The translations under genes were made by a program, and so were the position numbers. From a virus: a stretch of 64,000 bases of DNA. The stretch spans positions 1 to 64,000 of IMG/VR virus record IMGVR_UViG_3300003890_000025. One strand, given 5' to 3'. Below the pieces are notes generated by a model. That model was not told the DNA's origin. It worked only from the letters and a program-made list of their open reading frames with translations, and made no database searches. Shown piece by piece: positions 14,147 through 61,275 of this stretch (positions within the stretch are counted from its first letter, which is position 1; each line of letters begins with the position of its first letter).

Positions 14147-16648
14147 TTATACTCCAGTTACCTGAGCCCTAAACTTTATAGTACTACTAACGTGGCCTGA
14201 TAAGTTACTACTGGTATATTGTATTTGACCAGCAGTAGTTATACTAAACGTAATACCACTAGAATCTCCTCCGCCAGTTACTATTATAATCCAATCAGAG
14301 TCTCTTTGAATACCTAATATATTAAATACTTCATATAGATTAGTAGAAGCTATCCTAGTTACGCTTACTAAGGCCTTAAAAGACCTAACACTACTAGCAA
14401 AACTAAACCCAGTCACATCGGCTGGAGATGTTTGGTTATTAGCTGCTGAAAAGCTAGTTTCAGCTATATCACCACTACTAGGAGCCACTACATTACTTAT
14501 ATTTATATTACCTGAAGTATGTACTACTGATATACCACTAGACCCAGTAACTGTCACATTACTAAGATTACCTGATCCATCGTTACGTTGTAGAGTATTG
14601 GCAGCTCCTTGGGTACTAGGTAATGTTAAGGTATAGTCAGTAGTAGTTGCAGCGGCTCTTAATGAAGCCTTACCAGAAGTAGAGCCGTGTAAATTAAATA
14701 ATCTATCCTGTGAAATAGAAGCTACAGTAACTAGAGTATTTAGACTAGAGCCAGGAGAACCTGCAGGAGCTACTCTTAGATTTATAGCTCCCCCTGTTCC
14801 AGAACCTGTACCTCTGCCTCCTGCTAGGTCTAAATTAGCTCCATTTACATCTGGTCCGAATCCTCCAGTAGAGTTTATTTGAACTGCGACAGGACTTGGG
14901 TCTGCCACCCCAGTTCCAAAATAAGCGTTATATATAGGAGCGTCTTGAGATCCTAGTATTAATTGATTATTAGCGGTAGCAGTAGCGCCTCTTCCTATTA
15001 CTATAACTTTATCAAAGTTACCACTATTTGCTCCTCTGCCTATAAGTACAGATTCACTAGTTGTTGTAGTAGAACCAGTACCTGCTGTGGAGCCTATAAT
15101 TACGTTACTATGACCAGTATTTATAGTTAACCCTGCTTGTAAGCCTATAATAGTGTTATGACCTGCTGTTAAATCTGTACCTGCGTCTTTACCTATTAAA
15201 GTGTTACCATTTGCAGTGGTGGCTGATTTACCTGCTCTATAACCTATTATAGTATTATTAACTCCGGAACTAATTAATTCTCCTGCTTCATGGCCTATTA
15301 CTATATTAGAGTTAGATACGTTGGTAGTATTGTTTGTATTTCCTAAAAATATACCATTACCTATGTTACTTAGCATAGGCGAGCCATCGAAGAAAATAGA
15401 ACCGCTAAGGTATAAGTCCTTCCACTGTTTAGGAGTACCTCCAGCTATACCTAAATCTATTGAGTTATCAGTACCTGGTAATAAACTAGTGTTTATAGCT
15501 ACACTGGCTAAATTTGATAAAGCTAAGTTAGCTTTACCGTTTAATTGTGTTTGAATAGCACTAGTTACACCGCTTAAATGACCTAATTCAGTACTAGTTA
15601 CTGAACTAGGTTCTATTACTCCACTAGTACTAGATTGTAAGGCTCTAGAGGCTGTTAAAGCCGCTAGTTTAGCTACTGCTATAGCTGCTCCAGTAGATAC
15701 GTCAGCGTCTACTATAAGAGAACTAGATAGGTTACCAGATCCATTATTATGTATAACTCCTGGTACAGTAAATACTGATATTGTAGGGGCTACATTAAAG
15801 GTTTTAGCTCCACCTATAGTTTGAGCGCCTGAGGTTAATACCCCAGGATTAGAACCGTCTGCTGGCTGTAGAGTTAATACTTGAGTGCTTAAACTAGCTC
15901 CGCTAGAATTCGGAGAAGAGCCTACTGCAGCTAGGGTTAAAGGGTCATGAGATGATTGATCTAGTGTTATACCACTAGCACCTGGTACTATAGTAGCCTC
16001 TCCTGCTGTATTAGGTGCTTTTAGCTTCCACGAGTTTCTATCACTTGATACTTTAACGTGTCCTGTAGGAGTAGAAGCCTCTTCAACCTCAATACCAGAA
16101 CCAGCACCACTACCTGCTCCTCCACCATCATTTAAAGTTATTAATGAATCAGTTACGTTTAAATTAGTTACGTTCTGATTATTAACACTACCTATTATAT
16201 TTACTGTAGCTGTTGGGTGACCTATATTAATAATAGCAGCATTATTAACCCCTAGAGATAAAGTAGCAGATGGACTTACGTCTATACCACCTTCTGCTAA
16301 TATTTCACCCTGAGCTGTTATGTTCTCTACCTCTAAAGTATTAGTAGTATCATTAAAGGCTAAGTTTAATACATCCTCAGTTAAGTTACCATTAGAATCA
16401 GCAAAAGGTATAGCTTTATGTGTTAGTCCTACTAATCTACCAGCTAATACCCAATTAGTATTAGTGCCACTGTCTTGTTTTATATAAATCTTACCAGTAG
16501 TAGTGCTAATGTAAACGTCACCCTTATCTCCAGCTACGCTGGTTACGCTAGGGTCTAAATTGCCAGCCTGTATAGAAGCACTTTCTAAAAGCTTTAATTT
16601 AGCTTTTAGTGACTTTACTATCGCACCCTGAAAAATAACTGCTGGCAT
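14147..16648 (-). CDS. Tail fibre with YadA-like head repeats
   Basis: 833 residues, rich in N, T, S and G. Residues about 160-220 contain NVTDSLITLNDGGGAGSGA and GHVKVSSDRNSWKL, a domain common to phage fibres. Residues about 440-570 hold repeats of the type NTIIGYRAGKSATTANGNTL and NVIIGSTAGTGS, resembling the collagen-adhesin-like heads of trimeric autotransporters, so a trimer is likely. The C-terminus (FSITTAGQIQYTSSNLSGH, IKFRAQVTG) is a beta domain shared with the 480-bp gene at 21436. It directly follows one of the three small virion paralogs. Confidence 0.75.
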   Translation of the reverse strand: MPAVIFQGAIVKSLKAKLKLLESASIQAGNLDPSVTSVAGDKGDVYISTTTGKIYIKQDSGTNTNWVLAGRLVGLTHKAIPFADSNGNLTEDVLNLAFNDTTNTLEVENITAQGEILAEGGIDVSPSATLSLGVNNAAIINIGHPTATVNIIGSVNNQNVTNLNVTDSLITLNDGGGAGSGAGSGIEVEEASTPTGHVKVSSDRNSWKLKAPNTAGEATIVPGASGITLDQSSHDPLTLAAVGSSPNSSGASLSTQVLTLQPADGSNPGVLTSGAQTIGGAKTFNVAPTISVFTVPGVIHNNGSGNLSSSLIVDADVSTGAAIAVAKLAALTASRALQSSTSGVIEPSSVTSTELGHLSGVTSAIQTQLNGKANLALSNLASVAINTSLLPGTDNSIDLGIAGGTPKQWKDLYLSGSIFFDGSPMLSNIGNGIFLGNTNNTTNVSNSNIVIGHEAGELISSGVNNTIIGYRAGKSATTANGNTLIGKDAGTDLTAGHNTIIGLQAGLTINTGHSNVIIGSTAGTGSTTTTSESVLIGRGANSGNFDKVIVIGRGATATANNQLILGSQDAPIYNAYFGTGVADPSPVAVQINSTGGFGPDVNGANLDLAGGRGTGSGTGGAINLRVAPAGSPGSSLNTLVTVASISQDRLFNLHGSTSGKASLRAAATTTDYTLTLPSTQGAANTLQRNDGSGNLSNVTVTGSSGISVVHTSGNINISNVVAPSSGDIAETSFSAANNQTSPADVTGFSFASSVRSFKALVSVTRIASTNLYEVFNILGIQRDSDWIIIVTGGGDSSGITFSITTAGQIQYTSSNLSGHVSSTIKFRAQVTGV

Positions 16649-39811: not shown

Positions 39812-39824
39812 TATTAACCCTCTA

Positions 39825-39849
39825 TTGAGTATTTGTTTAACGTACTCAA
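39825..39849. repeat. Inverted repeat in the AP2 leader
   Basis: TTGAGTA (39825-39831) and TACTCAA (39843-39849), perfect 7-bp arms with an 11-base loop, starting 14 bases upstream of the AP2 ATG. It could be an operator for the AP2 protein or a leader hairpin. Confidence 0.5.
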
Positions 39850-40316
39850 CCCAAACTAAGGAAGTCTATATAGGCTCATTCTATATAGTGTTGATACTGA
39901 CTATGTGGTAAATTTTGGGTAGGCTTCGCCTATATAGACCTATTATGTTTATAATAGAAAGGCCTTGTTAGGTTGACCGCCTAGTAACATTCTGCACCGT
40001 ACTCGGTTACCCCCTGACACTGACGCTAGTGGGTTAGGCTATGTCAGTAGAGAGGTGCTTTCGGGGCTAGGCTGTTACTGCCCATAGAAAGCCTCTTTCT
40101 CGCAGAGCTGTATGTTGTCTTTAGCTGGGTTATAAGGGTCTTAGCCTCTTTAGTCCAGCTCCATTTCAGCTTATTAAGCATCCCTGTAGACCTCACTCCG
40201 CTTGTCTCAGACTATACCCCCAGAGTCATACCTTATTTCAGGTGTTCCACTACCATAATTAGTAGTGTTCTGGGTTAAGACACGTTTTGTACTCTATACG
40301 TCACCGTATAGGTCGC
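39850..40316 (-). ncRNA. Candidate large structured noncoding RNA
   Basis: About 470 bases without a convincing gene and GC-richer than its surroundings. Read leftward from the promoter at 40323-40328, hairpins follow in close order: CTATACG-GUGA-CGTATAG (a GNRA loop, near 40293-40310); an outer CCCAGA/TCTGGG stem enclosing CACTAC/GTAGTG and ACCT/AGGT hairpins (about 40220-40273); AGAAAG-AGG-CTTTCT (about 40086-40100); CAGTA/TACTG; ACCG-AGTA-CGGT; CTATTAT-AAAC-ATAATAG; TAGGC-GAA-GCCTA. Loops favour the leftward strand. Size and ornate folding recall phage large RNAs such as GOLLD or ROOL, but I cannot match it to either. It may also serve as a long leader for the AP2 operon. Confidence 0.5.
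39864..39939. repeat. Perfect 12-bp inverted repeat
   Basis: GTCTATATAGGC (39864-39875) and GCCTATATAGAC (39928-39939) enclose about 52 bases that contain a further CTATATAG. The arms could close the 3' end of the leftward RNA or be protein sites. Confidence 0.6.
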
Positions 40317-40321
40317 ATATT

Positions 40322-40356
40322 TATTATAGCATATTAAATCCAAATATGCTATAATT
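40322..40356. promoter_or_regulatory. Back-to-back -10 elements in a perfect inverted repeat
   Basis: TTATAGCATATT and AATATGCTATAA form 12-bp arms around a short loop. Each arm contains an extended -10, TGCTATAAT: rightward at 40350-40355 (gene at 40365) and leftward at 40323-40328 (structured RNA). No good -35 is seen for either, so they depend on the TGN extension or an activator. The symmetry itself could be an operator. Confidence 0.55.
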
Positions 40357-40364
40357 ATTTTATT

Positions 40365-40643
40365 ATGTCTAAAGGTATGAAAACATTATTCTTTTTAAAC
40401 ATTTTCTATGAATTTATAAATAAATATGATTCTAAATTACCTTTATACGCCACTTATACAGAACTTGAATGTTTAAGTAATTCAGAAGAACTTAAGTGGG
40501 ATAACGGTAAGCCTGCAATAAAATTTCTAAGTAAATATAAACCAATTGATCGTAGAGCAGTTATAATAGCAGGACACTATTTCAAAAGTAATGAAAAATT
40601 ACAAACAATTAAAAACAGACTAGCAAGAAAGTCAATTATATGA
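40365..40643 (+). CDS. Unknown protein
   Basis: 92 residues, basic, with LFFLNIFYEFINKYDSKLPL at the start and RRAVIIAGHYFKSNEKLQTI later. No recognised fold. The ATG is only ten bases beyond the rightward -10 box, so the message has almost no leader. It overlaps the exonuclease gene by four bases. Confidence 0.5.
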   Translation: MSKGMKTLFFLNIFYEFINKYDSKLPLYATYTELECLSNSEELKWDNGKPAIKFLSKYKPIDRRAVIIAGHYFKSNEKLQTIKNRLARKSII

Positions 40644-41212
40644 AACTCATAGCTATAGACCTAGAGCTTAATAACCCTAAAACTAATCAATCTATAATCC
40701 AAATAGGTGCAGTGGTAGGAGATTTAAATTTAAAAACTATTATTGAGGAATATAAAGCCAATATTCGACTACCTGAAGGTGAACTACTACAGGACTATAT
40801 TAGTAATTTAACTAATATCAAGCCCCAAGAAGTAGAAGGTAACGGATTAAGTCTAAAAGAGGCTGTAAAAGACCTCCATAACCTAGTCACTAAATACGAC
40901 TGTTTAAAATCGCCTATAACGTGGGGTGGAGGTGACTTGCCACTCTTACGTCAAAAGTACCTAGAATCTCTCAATGGTGAGCCTTTAAACACGTTTAATT
41001 GGCCTTTTGGTTGGAGGGAGCTGGACGTAAAAACAGTCTACCAGACTAGGTGTTTAGCTTTAGGCCTAAAACCACAGGGGTCTTTAGCTAAAAGTATGAC
41101 TAAACTAGGCCTGAGGTTTCAGGGGACTAAGCATAACGCATTAGATGACGCTAAGAATACTTTATTATTATATTATAAGTTATTGGAGGATTATAAAATT
41201 AGATTATGTTAA
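40640..41212 (+). CDS. DEDD-family 3'-5' exonuclease
   Basis: 190 residues. Exo I IAIDLEL (D7, E9), Exo II-like WGGGDLPLL (D99) and Exo III HNALDDAKNT (H165, D169/D170) give the DEDDh set of DnaQ/RNase T-like exonucleases. Likely a stand-alone proofreading or RNA/DNA trimming enzyme; the family A polymerase at the right edge is leftward and distant. The gene overlaps both neighbours by a few bases. Confidence 0.8.
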   Translation: MKLIAIDLELNNPKTNQSIIQIGAVVGDLNLKTIIEEYKANIRLPEGELLQDYISNLTNIKPQEVEGNGLSLKEAVKDLHNLVTKYDCLKSPITWGGGDLPLLRQKYLESLNGEPLNTFNWPFGWRELDVKTVYQTRCLALGLKPQGSLAKSMTKLGLRFQGTKHNALDDAKNTLLLYYKLLEDYKIRLC

Positions 41213-41607
41213 ACTTTAAAATTCAATCTTTTATAAATATAGTTTTAATTTTTATTCTTATTAATCTTAATCAACACTGTAATAACACTGATAAAACACC
41301 GATAAAGCCACCAACGACAGAACCCAGTCCTACTCCAGAGCCTAAGCCTGAAGAAAATTTAGTAGCTAAAGGTAAAGCTATTTACCGTAGAAACTGTATT
41401 AGTTGTCATAATATTAACCCTAAGTTAGTTGGTTCTGTAGGGCCTGATTTATACGGGTCTAGCTTAGATTTATTAAGGTCTAAAGTTATATATGGAACTT
41501 ACCCAAAAGGCTATAAACCTAAACGTAATACTAAAATAATGCCTAAGTTCCCTAGTCTTGAACCTAATATAGAGGCTATAAAAGAGTTTCTAAATTCTGA
41601 TTTATAG
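41206..41607 (+). CDS. Monohaem class I cytochrome c, probable lipoprotein
   Basis: 133 residues. A hydrophobic signal (about 9-22) ends at C25, a possible though non-canonical lipobox; a proline/threonine-rich linker (31-50) follows. The domain has the haem site CISCH (C64, C67, H68), GPDLYGSS, and a candidate axial Met in KIMPKFPSLEP (M112), then a C-terminal helix: the full class I layout in about 80 residues. The protein should carry covalent haem on the periplasmic side, made by the host maturation system. Its gene overlaps the exonuclease by seven bases, so it is a genuine part of the phage operon. Confidence 0.85.
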   Translation: MLNFKIQSFINIVLIFILINLNQHCNNTDKTPIKPPTTEPSPTPEPKPEENLVAKGKAIYRRNCISCHNINPKLVGSVGPDLYGSSLDLLRSKVIYGTYPKGYKPKRNTKIMPKFPSLEPNIEAIKEFLNSDL

Positions 41608-41639: not shown

Positions 41640-42167
41640 ATGGCAGGCGAATTAGCAAAACTATTAAAAAATTTAATTAAAGTCGATGAGCAGGGTAGGT
41701 TAATGCATGATGCTAGAAAAGATTTACCTGAAGGTATCCCTGCTGATAAGCTGAGGCATATTTTACCTAGAGGAGTAGATTCTGGTGGTGCAGTAAATGA
41801 GTCTGAGAAGACTATGGCTCCTTTAGTAGAGTCCAATAAAATCGATGAAGAGTCTGTTCTTAGAGATATGAAAGAAAGAGGTGTTATATCAGAACAAGAC
41901 TTTGAAAGAATTAAATCTGCTTTAGGTAAAGATAATCAAGAGCTAGAAGCTATTAAATCAAAACCTACAGAAAATGTAGAATTAGCTCAAGAATCAGCTT
42001 TAACTGAAGAAGAAAACTTAGACGCTAGAGATAGTATTATAAATAACTTACGTAATATAGAGATAGATGATGAGTTATTAGAAGAAGACCCAGTAGCTAA
42101 AAGAAGGAGGCTATTGCGAGATAGGTTACTCAATAATACCTTTAAACCACCTATAGGTGAAGAGTAA
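41640..42167 (+). CDS. Acidic helical protein, unknown
   Basis: 175 residues, mostly acidic helix with LVESNKIDEESVLRDMKERG and a basic patch KRRRLLRDRLLNNTF at the C-terminus. The composition resembles small scaffold or internal virion proteins. AGAGGTATAAAAATA precedes the ATG. It converges with a leftward small membrane protein whose end it overlaps by 42 bases. Confidence 0.5.
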   Translation: MAGELAKLLKNLIKVDEQGRLMHDARKDLPEGIPADKLRHILPRGVDSGGAVNESEKTMAPLVESNKIDEESVLRDMKERGVISEQDFERIKSALGKDNQELEAIKSKPTENVELAQESALTEEENLDARDSIINNLRNIEIDDELLEEDPVAKRRRLLRDRLLNNTFKPPIGEE

Positions 42168-46079: not shown

Positions 46080-47372
46080 ATGAATAATAATAATAATAAT
46101 GATTTAGATAGAATAGTGGTTGGTGATCGAGTATATTTAGAAAACAAAATCGGTCTAGAAGAACGACTCATAGAACATTTAACGCGAAGTGATTATTTAA
46201 TTGTAACTGATATCAGAAATAACCTTTGCGATATAGTTACCCCGAACGGGACAAAAATAAACATTTTATTTTTACACAGATTTAAAAAAATACCTTCACT
46301 TAAAATTAATGAAGATACAAAAATTGTGTTAGAAAACAATAGGTTAAAATTAATTACTAATAAAGAACACCTTTCAAGAAAAATTAACAAAAAACAGCAA
46401 CTATTAATTAATGATTCGTTAAAGTATGGAAATAATTATGCTTTATCATTTTTTGGTCATAAATTAATAAATCAAACATGGAAGATACTTATAGATAAAT
46501 ACAAAGATAAATCCGTTCTAAATAATATACCTCTAGCTACAGATGTAGAGGTACCTCCTATCTGCTACAGACCAACTAACGTCTTTTTATCTTTACAAAA
46601 GACGCTATACAATCCGCTCAGTGAAAAAAGACCGATTGGAAAGGATTTTGGACGTTACTTTGGAGTAGAAATCGAATGTTTCATACCTAATAAAAACTTC
46701 GACCAAATAGCTGAATTGTTAAGATCAAATAAAATAAAGAACGTCTCTCTTGCCAGAGATGGTTCTTTAAGCATTGACAAAGATTATTGGACTCCTGTCG
46801 AATTCAGAGTTTTAACAAAAATAAATGATTTTAATAATTTAGAAAAGTTATTGGATTTATTAAACTCTTGGGGTGCAGAGGTCAATAGTACTTGCGGGCT
46901 ACACGTGCACCTAGATATGAGGCACCTAAAAAGTAAAGTCTCGGTTAAGAAGAGAGCTGAAAAATTGTTAAAATTTTTACCAATGCTCAAGGCGATGGTA
47001 CCTAAAAGTCGTATTGAAAACGAATTCTGTAAACTTGATATAAGCAGTTTTGGAAATAGGTACGCAGCTATAAACCTGGAATCTTTTAAAAAACATAAAA
47101 CCATTGAAGTACGACTTCACAGTGGGACTATTGATAAAACCAAAATCATTAACTGGTGCAAGTTATTGTATATTATAATTAATTCAAAAATTGATAAATT
47201 TTATGATTTTGATTATAACATCACGAAAGCTTGTAAAATGTTAAAATTAAGTCAAGAATTGGAATTTTATGTTCGTTCTAGAATCCGAAAATTCAAGCCA
47301 ATTCTTTTAGAAGTAGACCAGTTAAAAAATCAACCAAATCAGCCAATAGTACAACCTCACAATTCATTATAA
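46080..47372 (+). CDS. Putative amidoligase
   Basis: 430 residues. The C-terminal 240 residues match the amidoligase family (COOH-NH2 ligases with a glutamine-synthetase-like fold): FGVEIEC (194-200), LARDGSLS (225-231), PVEFRVL (239-245), CGLHVHLDM (272-280), RYAAINLES (327-335) and TIEVRLHSGT (341-350), with the acidic and His residues expected for Mg-ATP binding. The first 170 residues are an unrecognised basic domain. Such enzymes form amide or isopeptide bonds using ATP; the partner class II amidotransferase follows at 47400. Substrate unknown; peptide or cell-wall modification is the usual prediction. Confidence 0.75.
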   Translation: MNNNNNNDLDRIVVGDRVYLENKIGLEERLIEHLTRSDYLIVTDIRNNLCDIVTPNGTKINILFLHRFKKIPSLKINEDTKIVLENNRLKLITNKEHLSRKINKKQQLLINDSLKYGNNYALSFFGHKLINQTWKILIDKYKDKSVLNNIPLATDVEVPPICYRPTNVFLSLQKTLYNPLSEKRPIGKDFGRYFGVEIECFIPNKNFDQIAELLRSNKIKNVSLARDGSLSIDKDYWTPVEFRVLTKINDFNNLEKLLDLLNSWGAEVNSTCGLHVHLDMRHLKSKVSVKKRAEKLLKFLPMLKAMVPKSRIENEFCKLDISSFGNRYAAINLESFKKHKTIEVRLHSGTIDKTKIINWCKLLYIIINSKIDKFYDFDYNITKACKMLKLSQELEFYVRSRIRKFKPILLEVDQLKNQPNQPIVQPHNSL

Positions 47373-47399
47373 GCCGTTAGAAAGAAAGGACATAAAAAC

Positions 47400-48305
47400 A
47401 TGTGTAAAATTTTTGCAATGTCAAATACTAGTAAGTTAACCAGAAAAAATTTCATAAATTTACTAAGAATAGTTCATCCAATTATAACACATTCTGAAGT
47501 AGATGGTTTTGGGTGGGCAGTTCTAGGTGAATCAGGTATTTACGGAGAAAAATATATCAATCCGACGGAATTTGACTTCAGAATTTTTAATAATGTTAAG
47601 GAAAATAAAATACTAAAAGAATTAATAAAAGAAGAGGCATCTTCATTTGGCCAGGCATCTAAACCGATAGGGCCGCTTTTAATCCACGGCAGAACTAGTA
47701 CAAATGACAAAACATTAACAAACACGCATCCATTTATTAAAAATAATTGGACATTGATTCACAATGGAGTAGTAGATAATCTTGGAGAAACGTATATTAT
47801 GGATTCTACTTGCGATTCGGAGCACCTTATACATTATCTTTCGTCAGGTGGAATAGAATCTATTGAAAAATACGTCAGTGGTTATTACGCCGTGGCAGCT
47901 ATTGACCCTAACGGAAACTTGCATGTATTTAAAGACGACATAGCATCACTCTATGTAGCTTATATAAAAACTATTGATAGCTTTATTTTCTCTACCACAA
48001 AGGACATGATTTCAATAACTTGTAAGAAAATGAAATGGGAATACACAGAAATAAATCCCATGAAAGGTAATTTTTATATGGTTATAAATAAAGAAAATGA
48101 ATTATTATATAGTAGGAAAATAAAACCTTTGAAAGTTTATTACGACTCTACTAGACAAAAAGCGTCAATAGCCTTTAAGGGCAGTGTAGACACAATACTA
48201 TCAGAGTCTATAAATGAAACTCATCACTTAAGTAGATTGTCTTTAAGAGATTTTGAAGACACAGCCTACTACACAACAGACAACTTTAATAAAAATAAAA
48301 CATAG
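47400..48305 (+). CDS. Class II glutamine amidotransferase
   Basis: 301 residues. The N-terminal nucleophile Cys follows Met directly (MCKIFAM), and HGRTST (96-101), THPF (109-112), HNGVVDN (121-127) and the DSEHL stretch (139-143) form the Ntn-hydrolase glutaminase site. After about residue 230 no synthetase domain follows; the tail is polar. It should hydrolyse glutamine to release ammonia for a partner enzyme, most likely the amidoligase encoded 27 bases upstream. AAAGGA precedes the ATG. Confidence 0.8.
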   Translation: MCKIFAMSNTSKLTRKNFINLLRIVHPIITHSEVDGFGWAVLGESGIYGEKYINPTEFDFRIFNNVKENKILKELIKEEASSFGQASKPIGPLLIHGRTSTNDKTLTNTHPFIKNNWTLIHNGVVDNLGETYIMDSTCDSEHLIHYLSSGGIESIEKYVSGYYAVAAIDPNGNLHVFKDDIASLYVAYIKTIDSFIFSTTKDMISITCKKMKWEYTEINPMKGNFYMVINKENELLYSRKIKPLKVYYDSTRQKASIAFKGSVDTILSESINETHHLSRLSLRDFEDTAYYTTDNFNKNKT

Positions 48306-53674: not shown

Positions 53675-53989
53675 ATGGAAAAAACAAATAGTTTAATAGG
53701 AAAACCAGTAATAGTAAGAGCAAATGTGGCGGGGGTGCACGCAGGAATTTTAGATTCCCTAGATGGAACTGCTGCCACCTTAAAAAACGCATACCGTCTT
53801 TGGAGAGTATATACTCGCGACAAGTCTGGCTCTATTTCGGACGTAGCTGCTAACGGATTAAGGCCAGATGCACAACACTCTGTTGGTACCATGCTCGAAA
53901 CTGTAGTGATTGTTAATCCACCAGGATTAGAAATTGCACAAATGACACAAGATGCGTATGACGGTCTTAAGGATTGGGCTGGAAAATGA
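53675..53989 (+). CDS. DUF6948-like small protein
   Basis: 104 residues. LIGKPVIVRANVAGVHAGIL, AYRLWRVYTRDKSGSISDVA and HSVG...ETVVIVNPPGLEIAQM match the DUF6948 type protein found in many unrelated phages, often directly before a glycine-rich protein as here. Function unknown. The second of two in-frame ATGs is chosen because it is correctly spaced from AAAGGAA. Base composition is distinctly richer in GC than the genes on its left. Confidence 0.7.
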   Translation: MEKTNSLIGKPVIVRANVAGVHAGILDSLDGTAATLKNAYRLWRVYTRDKSGSISDVAANGLRPDAQHSVGTMLETVVIVNPPGLEIAQMTQDAYDGLKDWAGK

Positions 53990-54633
53990 CAATAATTGAC
54001 GGCTACGGCTCTGGCGATGGCTCTGGTTCTGGCTCTGGTTCTGGGTATGGTTATGGCTATGGCTCTGGCGATGGCGATGGCTCTGGTTCTGGCTCTGGTT
54101 CTGGCCACGGATCTGGCTATGGCGATGGCAATGGCAATGGCTTTGGCTATGGCTATGGATCTGGCGATGACTATGGCGATGGCTTCGGAAAAAAGAAAGA
54201 TTCGGTTGTAATCTATTTTAGGGACGGCTTAGAGTTAAAAATAGATGCCTTACCTCAAATATCAAAAACTAGAGACGGGCATATCGTAGAGCGATACACC
54301 ATTAACGGTATAGAGGGGTTTTTCGTAACAATTGCAGGAACACCATATTGCGCTCATGGCTCTACATTATCGCAAGCAATATCAGACGCTATCTGGAAAG
54401 ATGAGTCAAAAAGGCCGTCACTTGAATCGTTAAAACAAGAAATAATTTCATCTGGTAAAGATAGACTTATAACGCTAAAAGAGTTTCAATTATTAACTGG
54501 AGCGTGTACTGAAGGTTGTCGAATCGCCTTGAATAAAAAGGGTCTCAGTGGAAATCCGATGACAGCCAATGATATATATAAACACTTCCCCGAATGGGGG
54601 GAAAAACTTTTAAATATTCTTGGATGGAGATAA
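53986..54633 (+). CDS. Glycine-rich repeat protein with C-terminal domain
   Basis: 215 residues. Residues about 4-68 are a low-complexity GYGSGDGSGSGSGSG-type repeat of G, S, D and Y encoded by GGCTCTGGC/TATGGC/GATGGC units; the DNA repeats invite slippage and length variation. The remainder is a folded domain: IDGVEGFF-like INGIEGFFVTIAGTPYCAHG, AISDAIWKDESKR and a C-terminal helical part with C-rich GACTEGC. This pairing with a DUF6948-like gene is recurrent in phages; function unknown, possibly a surface or virion protein. ATG overlaps the preceding stop. Confidence 0.65.
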   Translation: MTIIDGYGSGDGSGSGSGSGYGYGYGSGDGDGSGSGSGSGHGSGYGDGNGNGFGYGYGSGDDYGDGFGKKKDSVVIYFRDGLELKIDALPQISKTRDGHIVERYTINGIEGFFVTIAGTPYCAHGSTLSQAISDAIWKDESKRPSLESLKQEIISSGKDRLITLKEFQLLTGACTEGCRIALNKKGLSGNPMTANDIYKHFPEWGEKLLNILGWR

Positions 54634-60780: not shown

Positions 60781-61275
60781 ATGAGTAAAGTTTATACTAA
60801 AACTGGAGATGACGGTCAAAGTAGTATAAAAGGCTGTAGATTAAATAAAAAATCTCCTGTATTTGACGCTATTGGTGATATTGATGAATTAGCTGGATGG
60901 ATAGGGTTATTAAATACGGATAACTATTTAACAGACATACAAGAGGCTCTATTTGAAATAGGAGCCTTTTTAGCTGGTTACGGAGAATTCTCAAGGGACT
61001 CTAATCAGCTAGAATATCTAATAGATGAGGCTTATAATAAACTACCTACTTTGAGAGCATTTATAATACCCACTGGACAATTACAGTCACAGTGGTTTAT
61101 AGCTAGAGCTGTTTGCAGAAGAGCTGAACGTAGCGTAGAGGGACTAGAGTCTTGTAAGGGAGTAAAAGGTTATTCAAAAGTACTATCATATTTAAATAGG
61201 TTATCAGATCTACTTTTTATAAAAGGGTATGAGTCTAATCCAAACGCTAAGTTATGGATTTCTAATAAAGATTAA
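60781..61275 (+). CDS. PduO-type ATP:cob(I)alamin adenosyltransferase
   Basis: 164 residues. VYTKTGDDGQSSIKGCRLNK (4-23), GDIDELAGWIGLLN (32-45), IQEALFEIGAFL (53-64), FIIPTGQLQSQW (94-105) and ARAVCRRAERSVE (108-120) follow the PduO family in order, including the ATP-binding N-terminal loop and the RRAER helix. Cysteine/Phe details aside, it should make adenosylcobalamin. In phages such an enzyme would serve a B12-dependent ribonucleotide reductase, but none lies in this window. Confidence 0.85.
   Translation: MSKVYTKTGDDGQSSIKGCRLNKKSPVFDAIGDIDELAGWIGLLNTDNYLTDIQEALFEIGAFLAGYGEFSRDSNQLEYLIDEAYNKLPTLRAFIIPTGQLQSQWFIARAVCRRAERSVEGLESCKGVKGYSKVLSYLNRLSDLLFIKGYESNPNAKLWISNKD

Follow-up and report, generated by a model that had tools for sequence, protein, structure and literature searches.

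We analysed a 64,000-nucleotide stretch of viral DNA (the window; positions 1 to 64,000 of IMG/VR record IMGVR_UViG_3300003890_000025, which is 79,148 bases long) and found that the open reading frame (ORF) at 41206–41607 on its plus strand encodes, as judged by homology, a true monohaem cytochrome c of class I. We propose that this is a functional phage gene, a periplasmic cytochrome c of host origin acting as a respiratory auxiliary metabolic gene whose product would carry electrons and so sustain or redirect periplasmic electron flow, a reading that we regard as probable while leaving appreciable room for doubt. The parts of the proposal drawn from sequence are the cytochrome identity, the export signal, the recurrence in phages both related and unrelated, the host-phylum family with its membrane partner and the purifying selection on a second cytochrome type; that the phage cytochrome changes host metabolism during infection is what we infer from them. 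An auxiliary metabolic gene is a host-derived metabolic gene on a bona fide phage genome, and here the record carries terminase, portal and capsid (major head protein) genes, all on the minus strand, and the cytochrome has relatives in the presumed host phylum.

The ORF starts with ATG, stops at TAG and specifies 133 amino acids. In profile searches against curated Pfam gathering cut-offs (21.3 bits for Cytochrom_C, PF00034; 27 bits for Cytochrome_CBB3, PF13442), the protein scored 32.3 bits (E 2.6e-7) and 30.4 bits (E 5e-7), respectively, and NCBIfam profiles returned class I cytochrome matches as well, bearing out the class I monohaem cytochrome c proposed in an earlier note on this DNA. A CISCH haem c attachment motif (residues 64–68; 41395–41409, plus strand) lies near the N terminus of the domain, and Met112 (41539–41541), the predicted axial haem ligand, lies distally within TKIMP, behind a family signature, YPKGYKPKR (residues 99–107; 41500–41526). 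The CISCH motif and the downstream KIMP methionine had both been remarked on in that note, and the single C64-X-X-C67-H68 motif and distal M112 proved invariant across 36 sequences: C64, C67, H68, G79, P80, Y99, P100, K106, R107 and M112 showed no variation across all 32 cellular and all 4 viral homologues. The match exceeds chance, because relatives from viruses and bacteria, 44–57% identical, align over the entire domain and C64, C67, H68 and M112 do not vary. A covalently attached, His/Met-ligated haem is accordingly what the sequence predicts, and the YPKGYKPKR loop is likely, from its conservation, to be a partner-docking surface.

At the family level, the window protein shows the YPxGYxPKR motif and domain-wide homology characteristic of cytochromes c associated with short DUF989 proteins. 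Other identities were rejected: SoxX (TIGR04485), for which the score was 25.7 bits against an equivalog cut-off of 61; a cbb3-oxidase subunit, with a score far under the curated cut-off; the urate oxidase PuuD, as the 133-residue protein has a single cytochrome domain and no fused eight-transmembrane (8-TM) DUF989; and membership of the aa3-operon cytochrome c subfamily, as blastp at 1e-4 gave no match to the proteins of phages G007 and G354.

Residues 1–25 (41206–41280) comprise a lysine followed by a hydrophobic stretch, a predicted export signal or membrane anchor that forms a helix over residues 3–25 in the model, in agreement with the earlier description of an exported protein. The possible lipid anchor suggested alongside it did not hold up: Cys25 aligns with a lipoprotein cysteine present in 26 of 32 cellular homologues, and a pattern scan for Ala, Gly or Ser before the cysteine found INLNQH-C, with His at −1. 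Lipid anchoring of the window copy is therefore doubtful, the usual lipobox being missing, and a relaxed lipobox is conceivable. A proline-rich linker (41281–41349), recognized from the sequence, joins the anchor to the haem domain; it had no structure in the model and is shorter in the homologues. In line with the class I layout read earlier, an AlphaFold2 model built from eight sequences (mean pLDDT 82.8; around 92–95 near CISCH) had helices at residues 48–63, 87–94 and 116–129, and its structural matches were mostly class I cytochrome domains (Z 6.0–7.8), including an actinobacterial bcc cytochrome subunit, cytochromes c6, SorU and the c domains of cd1 and haem–Cu nitrite reductases. We treat the fold as supportive and the sequence as decisive, because Foldseek returned nothing at E < 0.001 with this model and Z values of 6–8 do not by themselves prove a fold; the modelled class I helical fold is of moderate strength. 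At the level of the fold, the refutation by structure prediction foreseen in that note did not materialize.

The cytochrome gene lies in a plus-strand run that starts with a 92-residue ORF without a Pfam match (40365–40643) and continues with an RNase_T-type 3′–5′ exonuclease (40640–41212; PF00929, 1.3e-11; phrog_192, 4.4e-14), whose stop the cytochrome ORF overlaps by 7 nt; both the phage exonuclease and the overlap were as previously described. On the 3′ side is a 175-residue ORF (41640–42167, plus strand) with a weak SHOCT-like match only. No chromosomal genes were seen around the cytochrome gene, and its third-position GC of 0.20 resembles that of the adjacent phage genes. Upstream of the run, about 550 bases (39812–40365) hold no convincing ORF and no Rfam match, and have a G+C content of 0.41, compared with 0.35 for the phage.

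Scans covering 2.9 million viral contigs recovered window-type cytochromes in G001 (50% identity), G353 (46%) and G352 (49%); further viral scans yielded no additional carriers. G001 and G353 belong to the lineage of the window phage (terminases 42–48% identical). G352 is a 119-kb phage with no related terminase and, from a reading of its ORFs, a tail-sheath-like protein, and its cytochrome points to an independent acquisition. The G001 copy clustered with Fibrobacterota sequences in a tree (support 95/86, on a long branch), and an AU test of a single viral origin for the four window-type copies gave p 0.28. The haem ligands and the putative docking loop were preserved in all four. Together with a second cytochrome type, five viral records besides the window encode a monohaem cytochrome c, giving six records and two unrelated phage types in all. 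One of the five has the same exonuclease–cytochrome order, which answers the objection of assembly chimerism that the earlier note had raised; with five more records encoding such a protein, chimerism or contamination is very unlikely. The rarity of this cargo, also asserted there, agrees with our finding no relative of either type among 50,697 deposited phage records. A matching cytochrome c was not found in lineage members G002, G003, G004, G005 and G008, nor was a replacement exported CXXCH protein in G002, G004 and G008; as several lineage members lack a matching gene, the cytochrome is accessory, recurrent cargo.

The second type occurs in G007 and G354, also relatives of the window phage, as class I cytochromes c of a different subfamily (L049:1462–1845, minus strand, in G007; L062:10001–10381, plus strand, in G354). 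The G007 gene lies 10 nt behind a homologue (33% identity) of the window exonuclease and that of G354 about 1.5 kb off, on the opposite side of neighbouring genes, so that strict exonuclease–cytochrome synteny, true for the window and G007, is broken in G354; the displaced copy marks the cytochrome as a movable accessory gene. The type shares 64% identity with the chromosomal cytochrome c encoded at the head of a complete aa3-oxidase operon in the Bacteriovoracales phylum, and the G007 copy is 60–64% identical to host oxidase-operon-type proteins. The operon order is cytochrome c, CtaA (PF02628, 1e-105), an SCO-like protein, a CoxB that bears a cytochrome domain of its own, CoxA, CoxC and CtaB, the genes other than CtaA being assigned from reading translations. 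By homology, this type was captured from a host separately from the window's type. One phage lineage has taken up electron carriers repeatedly, and another once. Purifying selection was measurable for the second type only: between the G007 and G354 genes, dN was 0.16, dS 1.35 (near saturation) and dN/dS 0.12 (Nei–Gojobori), with 57% of third and 91% of second positions identical, indicating that selection maintains this cytochrome while it is in phages.

Several lines of evidence bear on the host. The terminase (27%) and portal (29%) of the window phage had their best deposited-phage match in a phage of Silvanigrella aquatica, an Oligoflexia relative, and a 155-kb contig of G245, a genome of the Bacteriovoracales phylum, carries at about 28–51 kb a prophage in which the terminase, portal, capsid and tail genes are homologous, flanked on both sides by housekeeping-type genes. 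This prophage and the Silvanigrella phage as nearest isolate support a host range in the Bacteriovoracales phylum, and the window phage probably infects Bdellovibrio-group bacteria; no tRNAs or Rfam RNAs were found as host clues. Of 59 genomes of the phylum, 51 encode a cytochrome-assembly protein (PF01578), which means that the phage can rely on its host to attach the haem. As a separate observation, structural genes of the G245 prophage (G245:C4; L145, L146) contain in-frame TAG codons, seven of them in the portal gene, and its coding density rises from 0.72 to 0.94 with TAG translated as sense, which suggests stop-codon recoding.

Other features of the record were also recognized. An adenosylcobalamin-dependent ribonucleotide reductase (L003:4745–7549, minus strand; 68745–71552 of the record) contains an intein that carries a LAGLIDADG domain and has a shorter, 617-residue homologue in G353 (75% identical). 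A PduO-type cobalamin adenosyltransferase (60781–61275, plus strand; PF01923, 1e-34), also found in G353 (44%), could supply the cofactor of this phage class II ribonucleotide reductase. At 46080–48305 (plus strand), an Amidoligase_2 gene and, behind it, one for a class II glutamine amidotransferase form a pair kept in G004 (38%). A trypsin-like serine protease (PF13365; 36602–37354, minus strand), whose N terminus carries a membrane anchor, has homologues in G002 and G004. An ORF at 53974–54633 (plus strand) consists of low-complexity Gly-Ser-Asp-Tyr repeats. A 48-residue piece of the tail-fibre-like protein at 14147–16648 (minus strand) is 85% identical to one in G352, the unrelated cytochrome-bearing phage; exchange of receptor-binding modules, and a host range shared with G352, are possible.

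The nearest cellular relatives of the window protein came from Bacteriovoracales, Oligoflexia and Fibrobacteres genomes (44–53% identity). Its family was present in 72 of 339 sampled genomes of the Bacteriovoracales phylum, which we take to be Bdellovibrionota, and in all 30 of the 30 best loci the cytochrome gene lay directly behind, and on the same strand as, the gene for a short 4-TM Urate_ox_N (DUF989) membrane protein (Pfam-checked). These short DUF989 proteins carry two invariant His residues. The two-gene host module (L065–L094, for example L005:5322–6375), a short DUF989 membrane protein followed by a cytochrome c lipoprotein, appears to be unstudied. A full-length DUF989 fused to cytochrome c is the urate oxidase PuuD (Doniselli et al., PMC4562309), and the shorter 4-TM DUF989 proteins have been described as having no cytochrome and a wholly different gene context (PMC4562309); the cytochrome adjoining the short form looks like its separate partner. 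By homology, both phage types derive from bacteria of this phylum and are kin of cytochromes of membrane redox chains.

The strict adjacency of cytochrome and short DUF989 genes in 30 of 30 cellular loci, the retention of K106/R107 and YPxGY in every viral copy and the two invariant His residues of the host membrane protein, as possible in a haem-b redox protein, would all suit a dedicated partnership, in which the phage cytochrome boosts or diverts the one redox reaction of the host's short DUF989 protein rather than general respiration. We consider such a restricted role unlikely. The membrane partner is missing from the phages: no PF06181 Urate_ox_N (DUF989) gene was present in those searched, G000 and G001 included, and none adjoins the cytochrome copies of G352 and G353, so that transfer of the cytochrome together with a DUF989 partner was rejected. 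The genomes in which the DUF989-type cytochrome was found do not include G245, the prophage host, so that some hosts may lack the native partner, and relatives of the same lineage carry an oxidase-operon cytochrome, which points to a common, more general respiratory role. Because these sister phages use the oxidase-operon type, a general respiratory function is likelier than a special one with DUF989.

Under the respiratory reading that we favour, the phage cytochrome would be exported to the periplasm of the infected cell, and haem would be supplied and attached by the host's own maturation system. The conserved YPxGYxPKR face would dock on redox proteins of the host (terminal oxidases, the short DUF989 protein or both). 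With the added electron-carrying capacity, electrons would still arrive at the terminal oxidase or at the module of the short DUF989 protein, which would uphold respiration and the proton motive force while host protein synthesis is shut down. Manipulation of periplasmic electron transport, which the earlier note had put forward, is still something we infer, and is better grounded because both cytochrome types are tied to membrane redox operons. A broader claim, that phages of Bdellovibrio-type bacteria have repeatedly and independently captured the host's periplasmic cytochrome c (a DUF989 partner or an aa3 donor) as an interchangeable, portable electron shuttle, is one we hold tentatively, at a little under even chances; if it holds, respiratory electron flow, beyond the supply of precursors, would be a bottleneck under phage control.

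The viral copies have net charges of +5 to +11, compared with −3 to +6 for the cellular ones, which makes them more basic than most of the latter, and this extra charge could strengthen docking on acidic oxidase surfaces or serve in competition. Competition would be the core of an interference mechanism, in which an abundant, strongly basic phage cytochrome without its operon partner competes with the host cytochrome at the latter's partners and slows respiration, for example to block rival phages or set the timing of lysis. Such interference seems improbable to us, as the haem ligands are all intact, an inhibitor would have no need to stay competent for electron transfer, and the G007 copy still matches the host oxidase-operon type at 60–64% identity. 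Lower still do we rate protection, whereby the cytochrome would scavenge superoxide, peroxide or NO in the infected periplasm: superoxide oxidation is possible for class I cytochromes c and has been raised for the PuuD cytochrome domain (PMC4562309), but a second haem and a peroxidase feature are absent and the family context is one of electron-transfer operons. That the gene is a functionless passenger or artefact, brought in by transduction or chimeric assembly, would accord with a source known only as a metagenomic record and with the several relatives lacking the gene, but is barely credible given its occurrence in six records of two unrelated phage types, the exonuclease–cytochrome order common to the window and G007, the phage-like GC and lack of chromosomal neighbours, and the low dN/dS of the second type.

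If our respiratory reading is correct, it would show that phages of presumed heterotrophs, with at least two cytochrome types captured, are able to intervene in respiration at its periplasmic end. Whether respiration limits phage yield would become a testable question. The cytochrome would also offer an entry point for functional work on phages that infect the Bdellovibrio group, and would draw attention to the unstudied module of short DUF989 protein and cytochrome c lipoprotein.

The electron carriers so far known from phages (plastocyanin, ferredoxin) come mainly from those of photosynthetic organisms. Bdellovibrio-type bacteria are often predatory. Closest to the window protein are the short-DUF989 cytochrome lipoproteins of the Bacteriovoracales phylum and Fibrobacterota, which share YPxGYxPKR...M and a haem domain 44–57% identical; unlike these, the phage gene is a solitary one that follows an exonuclease gene and has no membrane partner, and its product lacks a canonical lipobox, has a longer Pro-rich linker and is more basic. 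The G007/G354 type has in common with the window's its phage lineage and class I monohaem architecture and, in G007, its position after the exonuclease gene. Like the cellular relatives of the window protein, PuuD couples cytochrome c to DUF989 (PMC4562309), but the phages searched have no DUF989 and the cellular relatives use the short form, which that study separated from puuD. The other phage c-type cytochrome for which we found a description is SoxD, whose gene is carried by phages of sulfur oxidizers and whose cytochrome motifs are missing in some copies (PMC8190135), but SoxD is a subunit of an enzyme, sulfane dehydrogenase. In function, the closest parallel is the plastocyanin (petE) of cyanophages, also a small electron carrier on a phage genome, for which a role as electron donor of cytochrome c oxidase in infected cells has been proposed (PMC10452541); that is a copper protein of photosynthetic hosts, whereas ours is a haem protein of presumed heterotrophic, partly predatory ones, and by this analogy the window cytochrome would best be explained as its haem counterpart. 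In the open-access papers searched, we found no phage described as carrying a stand-alone respiratory cytochrome c, an absence that is not proof; set beside the auxiliary electron carriers already known from phages, such a cytochrome would be a new variant among them.
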